DNA of 38,637 bases from Deltaproteobacteria bacterium (GTDB lineage: Bacteria; UBA10199; SPLOWO2-01-44-7). The translations under genes and the position numbers were made by a program. Numbering within the stretch: the first letter of the stretch is position 1; every line of letters starts with the position of its first letter. Shown piece after piece: positions 1 through 33,508 of this stretch. The notes under the pieces are model-generated. The model saw nothing but the letters and a program-made list of their open reading frames with translations, was not told the DNA's origin and did no database searches. The DNA lies in NCBI GenBank assembly GCA_030648035.1, contig JAUSII010000046.1:1-38637 (forward strand). Direction: 5' to 3'.

Positions 1-133
1 AAAGAAAGTGATTGGGTGGGATGTGCGCAGGTGATTTTTATCCTCCGGGGTCCATCAATAAAAATCACCGAGGGCAAGCTGTCGGTTTGGGTCCGACCCA
101 AACCGAACAGCGACCCTCCCAATCACTTTCTTT
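1..133. repeat. Family A three-way-junction palindromic element, copy A1 (may extend beyond window start)
   Basis: Outer arms aaagaaagtgattgggtggg / ccctcccaatcactttcttt; hairpin 1 ggtgattttta...taaaaatcacc; hairpin 2 cggtttgggTCCGAcccaaaccg. Confidence 0.85.
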
Positions 134-9975: not shown

Positions 9976-10053
9976 GATCAATAGGAAGCGGATACGTATT
10001 GCACATCCGCCCGATAACTATCAGCTTATTCAATACGTATCCGCTTCTTGCTG
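9976..10053. repeat. Family E palindromic repeat, copy E1
   Basis: gaagcggatacgtattg ... caatacgtatccgcttc arms (17 bp); reverse-orientation homologue of 15207-15307. Confidence 0.85.
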
Positions 10054-29502: not shown

Positions 29503-29580
29503 ATGCCGAAGAAGAAAAAAAAGGCCGTGAAGAAAAAGGCCACGAAGAAAAAGAAGAAGGCCAAGAAGAAAAAGAAATAA
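29503..29580 (+). CDS. 25-aa Lys/Ala microprotein MPKKKKKAVKKKATKKKKKAKKKKK (not in supplied ORF track)
   Basis: Strong RBS aaggaggaaaaaa upstream of ATG, in-frame TAA, downstream terminator. Confidence 0.65.
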   Translation: MPKKKKKAVKKKATKKKKKAKKKKK

Positions 29581-29593
29581 GTTTCAGTAAATG

Positions 29594-29640: not shown

Positions 29641-29796
29641 CGACTTTTGAGTGGGAAGTGTGGTGCGCAACTCCCCACTCCGCTTGGGGAGGCCCCCAAG
29701 CTCCGTTAGTTCCTCGGCCCGCCAAGTATAAAATCCCCCGAGGGGATTGGCGGGCCTGCGCAGTCGTTTCGCACCACACTTCCCACTCAAAAATCG
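29641..29796. repeat. Family B palindromic element, copy B1
   Basis: Outer arms ttttgagtgggaagtgtggtgcg / cgcaccacacttcccactcaaaa around core 29669-29767. Confidence 0.92.
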
Positions 29797-29845
29797 CACC
29801 GCAACTAAGAATTGAAAAAAAATTATAGTTTAAAAAATACGTGTT

Positions 29846-30009
29846 CAAAAGCTGGGAGCGGAAAAAAAGTGGTATGAGGTGGCCTGTCGGAGGCAATTTT
29901 ACAAACGGGATCCAAAAACAAAATTGCCGAGACCGGAGTACCCATGTGCGGGCCGACCCGCACATGAGGTACGTCCCCGAATACCCTTTTTTTCCGCTCC
30001 CAGCTTTTG
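29846..30009. repeat. Family A three-way-junction element, copy A2
   Basis: Outer arms caaaagctgggagcggaaaaaaag / ctttttttccgctcccagcttttg; hairpin 1 ggcaatttt...aaaattgcc; hairpin 2 atgtgcgggCCGAcccgcacat. Confidence 0.9.
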
Positions 30010-30031: not shown

Positions 30032-30133
30032 TTAGCCTCTGTATCGGAGGGAGGCGATGGTTTTGGCTTTCTTTTTGCCCTTTTTCTTTTTTTTGCGGTG
30101 AATTTTCTTTGCCACTTTTCTCTTCTTGTACAT
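30032..30133 (-). CDS. 33-aa Lys-rich microprotein MYKKRKVAKKIHRKKKKKGKKKAKTIASLRYRG (not in supplied ORF track)
   Basis: RBS-like aagggggataaa before ATG on the minus strand; in-frame TAA. Confidence 0.6.
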   Translation of the reverse strand: MYKKRKVAKKIHRKKKKKGKKKAKTIASLRYRG

Positions 30134-33047: not shown

Positions 33048-33094
33048 GCATGTGATCAATGCAAGCGTTATGCCAATTCTCCGGCCTGGTCGTA

Positions 33095-33250
33095 GAATCG
33101 CGTGAGTGGGGTGAGTATGAGAAACTCCCCACTCCGCTTGGGGAGGCCCCCAAGCTCCGTTAGTTCCTCGGCCCGCCAAGTATAAAATCCCCCGAGGGGA
33201 TTGGCGGGCCTGCGCAGTCGTCTCTCACACTCACCCCACTCACGCGATTC
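33095..33250. repeat. Family B palindromic element, copy B2
   Basis: Outer arms gaatcgcgtgagtggggtgag.. / ..ctcaccccactcacgcgattc around core 33123-33221, identical to B1 core. Confidence 0.95.
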
Positions 33251-33335
33251 ACCGGTCAGACTACTTCAAAATTCATATAAACTAACTTGATTTTGGCAGT
33301 TCATCGGAGTTTGAAGTAGTCTGACCGGTAATCGC
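33244..33335. repeat. Hairpin D between B2 and A3
   Basis: Perfect 20-bp arms accggtcagactacttcaaa / tttgaagtagtctgaccggt, extendable by gcgatt/aatcgc. Confidence 0.92.
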
Positions 33336-33352
33336 ATGTATCAACACTTTAT

Positions 33353-33508
33353 TGCCGAGGCGCAAACGTGAAGGTTTCCGGGGGCGTCTCGGAGGGCATT
33401 TTTTCGACCGGGATAAAAAACCAAAATGCCCGAGAGTCGAGCCCTAAATTTGGGTCCGACCCAAATTTAAGGGCGTACCCCGGAAACCTTCACGTTTGCG
33501 CCTTGGCA
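33353..33508. repeat. Family A three-way-junction element, copy A3
   Basis: Outer arms aggcgcaaacgtgaaggtttccgggg / ccccggaaaccttcacgtttgcgcct; hairpin 1 gggcatttt...aaaatgccc; hairpin 2 ccctaaatttgggTCCGAcccaaatttaaggg. Confidence 0.93.

Follow-up and report, generated by a model that had tools for sequence, protein, structure and literature searches.

Dispersed T-shaped, three-way-junction hairpin repeats in a poorly known bacterial class

The subterminal hairpins of IS200/IS605 elements and attC sites are imperfect hairpins in which unpaired bases mark one strand for the recombinase, and the terminal repeats of parvoviruses (AAV) are T-shaped, with a long stem closing two small hairpins. 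The described systems most like the elements reported here are the bacterial REP, REPIN and BIME sequences, which are dispersed, non-coding and mostly extragenic palindromes present in many copies, occur as inverted pairs of preferred orientation around a spacer, include hetero-pairs of different subfamilies, and show compensatory changes, with a hairpin predicted in single-stranded DNA or mRNA (PMC3116915, PMC3733652). Bacterial MITEs (reviewed in PMC10969869) are non-coding units with inverted terminal halves.

The T-hairpins described below share each of the REP properties listed, but are three-way junctions of 130–200 nt rather than hairpins of 20–40 bp, have been found in a single class, have no Y1/RAYT match in the host genome, and have not been seen beside RAYT genes. 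Inspection of T units by eye revealed no uniform unpaired tag of the REP type (GTAG or CGTC). Association with RAYTs is itself not universal, and CGTC-type REPs lack it (PMC3733652). On this comparison the T-hairpins would best be read as similar to REPINs in dispersal, pairing and folding, and as different in size, branching and the usual transposase. They differ from the IS200/IS605 hairpins and attC sites in being branched and dispersed singly or in pairs, with neither tnpA/tnpB nor a cassette array seen to be linked to them. Their likeness to the AAV repeats is one of shape only; we claim no sequence relation, and no replication gene lies between paired Ts. A host T pair, a non-coding unit of about 420 bp with inverted terminal halves, resembles the MITEs, although single T units stand alone in relatives, no target duplication was recognised, and no candidate parent insertion sequence was found between the neighbouring Ts examined or as a recurrent neighbour.

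Five branched hairpins in one contig

The window, meaning the whole 38,637-nt stretch of DNA analysed, corresponds to contig C62 in a host genome of 2.39 Mb and 135 contigs, and contains five T-shaped three-way-junction hairpins, four of them in two divergent pairs and the fifth cut off by the end of the contig (Table 1). Three of these, A1, A2 and A3, share a common plan in which a long outer stem encloses two hairpins: HP1, with an ATTTT/AAAAT arm and a loop containing CGGG, and HP2, with the tip GGGnCGnCCC. The arms, hairpins and loops of these three copies lie where a previous sequence-only reading had placed them. Its description of stems that change while loops do not is broadly right, although parts of the stems are fixed as well, namely the ATTTT/AAAAT arm in HP1 and the GGG/CCC in HP2, and the HP1 loop varies around its near-constant CGGG. 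The outer arms of A2 are perfect over 24 bp, those of A3 are 97% complementary over 31 nt, and the ends of the beta subfamily read TTTTGTCGGTG. The window opens at the first base of the contig, which cuts A1 short, and the mate of this copy is absent from the assembly.

Table 1. Positions of the T-hairpins and associated features in the window (bit scores from covariance model R2)
Feature	Position	Strand	Description
T-hairpin A1	1..133	+	alpha subfamily; 89.5 bits
A1 outer stem	1-20/114-133
A1 HP1	about 24-76		loop CCGGGGTCCA
A1 HP2	about 78-111		tip GGGTCCGACCC
T-hairpin B1	29641..29796	-	divergent subfamily; left half of divergent pair 1; inverted repeat I3; 57.3 bits, E 4e-14
Pair 1 spacer	29797..29845	.	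AT-rich, weakly palindromic
T-hairpin A2	29846..30009	+	beta subfamily; right half of pair 1; inverted repeat I4; 97.8 bits
T-hairpin B2	33086..33259	-	left half of divergent pair 2; inverted repeat I1; 54.3 bits
Pair 2 central spacer hairpin	33251..33329	.	inverted repeat I7; 20-bp perfect arms ACCGGTCAGACTACTTCAAA
T-hairpin A3	33353..33508	+	gamma subfamily; right half of pair 2; inverted repeat I2; 134 bits

Folded as single-stranded DNA, A1, A2 and A3 have z-scores of -11.2, -8.7 and -11.7, with no dinucleotide shuffle folding as well, and B1 and B2 have DNA-fold z-scores of -10.1 and -9.9. B1 and B2 are divergent members of the T-hairpin family in reverse orientation, as shown by their scores against model R2, from whose construction both had been left out. 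Small lysine-rich reading frames lie on either side of divergent pair 1 (29503-29582, + strand, and about 30040-30130, - strand). A further inverted repeat, with 17-bp perfect arms and a 29-nt loop, occupies positions 9985-10047 and shows no clear tie to the T-hairpins.

Copies in the host genome and its class

The HP2 tip GGGTCCGACCC occurs exactly 21 times in the host genome, compared with zero for a reversed control. A covariance model (R1) made from 27 copies has 59 matches in the same genome. The centre of the B-type palindromes of the window has 19 matches in the genome, and B centres are 94–100% identical at 11 places, which points to recent spread. Model R2 was made from 75 copies of the host genome and its relatives. 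We count about 72 T-type hairpins in the host genome, a figure that excludes a few weak R1 matches lying opposite a stronger copy with which they overlap.

Close pairs follow a consistent rule: 22 of 23 in the host genome are divergent, in the order reversed T, AT-rich spacer, T, and the pairs in genomes G002, G003 and G004 are likewise divergent. The other host-genome pairs have spacers similar to that of pair 1, 69–117 nt long. Nearly half of the host hairpins (34 of 72) lie no more than 450 nt from a contig end, so the unpaired copies are partly an effect of assembly, and T hairpins appear to break assemblies. At loci L024 and L029, remnants of beta and alpha outer arms flank a copy or pair that is itself intact, as though the interior of an older pair had been exchanged for a newer pair.

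Among 46 genomes of the host's class, R2 has matches in 15 and none in the remaining 31, with 1 to 64 copies per carrier genome (64 in G002). A search of 339 genomes outside the class, with eight candidates scored per genome, gave no R2 match. Rfam 15 has no match at the gathering threshold over the window, and none at E<=1 over 16 loci. The phage and plasmid collections searched contain no T-hairpin match, and in viral contigs no pattern match was confirmed by the model; over genome contigs a loose DNA pattern gave mostly chance matches, with only a few loci upheld. Nor did the open-access literature that was searched yield a description of the family. The earlier impression that no named family could be recognised thus holds as far as tested, and to the same extent this is an undescribed repeat family in a poorly known bacterial class.

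Some copies are elaborated at the HP2 tip. T copies in three genomes (L012:1231-1424, L027:635-828, L341:853-1045, L342:1232-1434 and L343:817-1017) carry at this position a module of 60–90 nt with two further hairpins (TCAAG..GCGAAG..GCGGAGT), in whose stems, too, the differences are paired. A different insert at the same tip, AGCTCGGATGCGACGC..TTAAACGCTGTCGCGGGGC, is present in G003 and G005 (L409:9952-10133, L410:9974-10155 and L419:14937-15118), with a GTTAAAC motif in two copies.

Covariation, the folded strand and the outer arms

The paired positions of the T-hairpins covary. In a first alignment (alignment A1) 36 of the 56 pairs have changed at both positions, with a covariation score of 0.347 compared to 0.132 when shuffled, and in the class-wide alignment (alignment A2) 48 of 52 pairs do so, with a score of 0.567 compared to 0.168. 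None of 500 shuffles reaches the score of the latter alignment, and slid structures score 0.10–0.19, a gap that is still large although the consensus structure was derived from the same sequences and is favoured by this over its slid versions. Different families of the class share conserved loops, tips and junction.

The single mismatches inside helices are also unequal. On the HP1-to-HP2 strand, a wobble-neutral count over strand-oriented copies gives 41 G.T and 11 A.C (p=4e-5), an asymmetry that argues that the fold of one strand matters, and that is given by selection on one folded strand and not by strand-symmetric copying of arms alone, although more frequent cytosine deamination on this strand would mimic it. 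The excess of G.T runs in the same direction in nearly every genome. With many copies, covariation far above that of shuffled and slid controls, and the one-strand wobble bias, selection on a folded DNA or RNA, as put forward in the sequence-only reading, is strongly supported. These data bear also on the idea that the T-hairpins are chromosomal protein-binding or architectural sites of the BIME kind (for gyrase, IHF or a nucleoid protein), which recombination has spread and function has maintained. The intergenic, dispersed and paired arrangement is that of BIMEs, but a one-strand bias is unexpected for a duplex binding site, and with 31 of the 46 class genomes having no match we consider this improbable.

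Whether the fold is adopted by DNA or by RNA is addressed by orientation. The T sites lie between co-directional genes in 44 cases, convergent genes in 20 and divergent genes in 15, and at the co-directional sites the T strand is the same as that of the genes in 23 cases and opposite in 21. Because the strand does not follow the neighbouring genes, the T-hairpin does not behave as a cis-acting RNA, whether leader or 3' element, leaving folded single-stranded DNA or an independent transcript. A structured RNA family, with each T expressed from its own promoter, pairs possibly being transcribed outward from the AT-rich spacer, and the products acting in trans or protecting transcripts, would account for the very strong covariation, the tolerance of G.T on one strand, the divergent pairs with their AT-rich centres, and conserved loops suited to protein binding. 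However, it has no Rfam match, and a copy number varying from 1 to about 70 together with absence from most related genomes resembles a mobile repeat, such that we regard it as possible but unlikely. We infer that folded single-stranded DNA is the better choice, because of this mobile-repeat-like variation in copy number, the near-identical B centres, and the REPIN-like pairing (PMC3116915).

Orientation relative to replication was uneven in a first set of single copies from G002 and G016 (L353-L392; 11:25, p about 0.03), with the T top strand on the C-rich strand in 25 of 36. A lagging-strand mechanism like that of IS200/IS605 could give such a bias. It was not confirmed in a follow-up set of five other genomes (18:24, p=0.44), and since only the first set was positive we draw nothing from it. 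In G011 both copies flank a NusG-like gene (L336), one of them upstream and in the same orientation.

The outer arms are common to copies of a subfamily at different sites, as seen in G005 (AAGGACCCTCTGAAAAACT..GGTGAC..), in G016 (AACGGCGCGCGAGG..), and in the alpha and beta groups of the host. The arms are therefore not taken from the insertion site, and the suggestion in the sequence-only reading that they are acquired there is not supported. Put as a core that inserts into existing palindromes, with the site supplying the arms, this suggestion is extremely unlikely: arms do differ between subfamilies, and REP dimers are known that lie within palindromes (PMC3733652), but copies of one subfamily share their arms at unrelated sites and the differences between arms are paired substitutions rather than wholesale replacements.

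Between nearest copies the core is 96.4% identical and the outer-stem pairs only 73% identical, the outer stems having 152 double Watson-Crick changes and 149 cells that differ on one side, such that the evidence from the arms is not one-sided, although the one-sided differences come partly from register shifts. The outer arms thus appear to change in concert and faster than the core, which fits template switching between hairpin arms together with selection removing unpaired states. Template switching is described as homogenising the arms of inverted repeats (PMC8604942) and as maintaining hairpins (PMC8794818). It could be proposed that such switching alone keeps the arms of neutral palindromes perfect, the fold being without function, and the concerted change of the arms would be expected on that basis; but copying is strand-symmetric whereas the mismatches are not, and the conservation of loops, tips and junction across class families also counts against it, making it very unlikely.

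Candidate mobilisers and a proposed mechanism

No Y1_Tnp match is present in the host genome, with its roughly 72 T hairpins, some of them nearly identical, nor in G040. RAYT-like Y1 genes occur widely in the class, in 48 of the 60 genomes that were searched, and REPs resemble the T-hairpins in their one-strand fold and inverted pairing, so that a Y1/RAYT transposase of the sort that moves known REPs deserves consideration as the mobiliser. However, no convincing T was found near the 30 Y1 loci examined in relatives, the two Y1 results leaving such a mobiliser unsupported, and the units are 130–200 nt long and not 20–40; we think this explanation highly improbable.

Other candidates were also rejected. 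A reverse transcriptase is missing from several copy-rich genomes, with no RVT_1 match in G002, G003, G004 or G012. An autonomous element of the form T-gene-T is not seen, as the intervals of 1–4 kb between neighbouring Ts of G011, G040 and G002 contain ordinary genes, and no mobiliser-like gene was found between those examined. There is no recurrent neighbouring protein beyond translations of the T itself and housekeeping orthologues. Copies in different genera share a site in a handful of cases, one of them downstream of a MurJ-like gene; some are on the same side, and we take them as coincidences. No movement was seen: neither empty sites nor excision products nor target duplications could be recovered at T units, the relatives compared being too distant.

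We propose, and put at about an even chance, that the T-hairpin is a non-autonomous, non-coding, REP/REPIN-like repeat that spreads within the genomes of one class through recognition of its fold by a trans-acting protein; the near-identical B centres, read as recent spread, would count towards this explanation. The protein, supplied in trans, would recognise the fold of one strand as single-stranded DNA, through the outer stem, the CGGG(A/G) of the HP1 loop, the GGGnCGnCCC tip of HP2, and the conserved internal loops. In the host and G002 the spreading unit would often be the divergent pair of about 420 bp, in the order reversed T, AT-rich spacer, T; genomes other than these two have mostly single T units. 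Changes in one arm would be copied into the other by template switching on the hairpin, so that arms drift yet stay complementary, and selection against an unpaired fold may also keep them so.

More tentatively, and with rather less than even confidence, we suggest that these are class-wide mobile repeats folded from a single strand, with a branched recognition structure, an enzyme outside the Y1/HUH REP system, and arms that are renewed when one serves as template for the other. The question raised is which enzyme might spread such a branched hairpin where no Y1 transposase is detectable in the genome, and the T-hairpins would offer a clean natural example in which one strand retains its fold although the sequence of its stems runs free.
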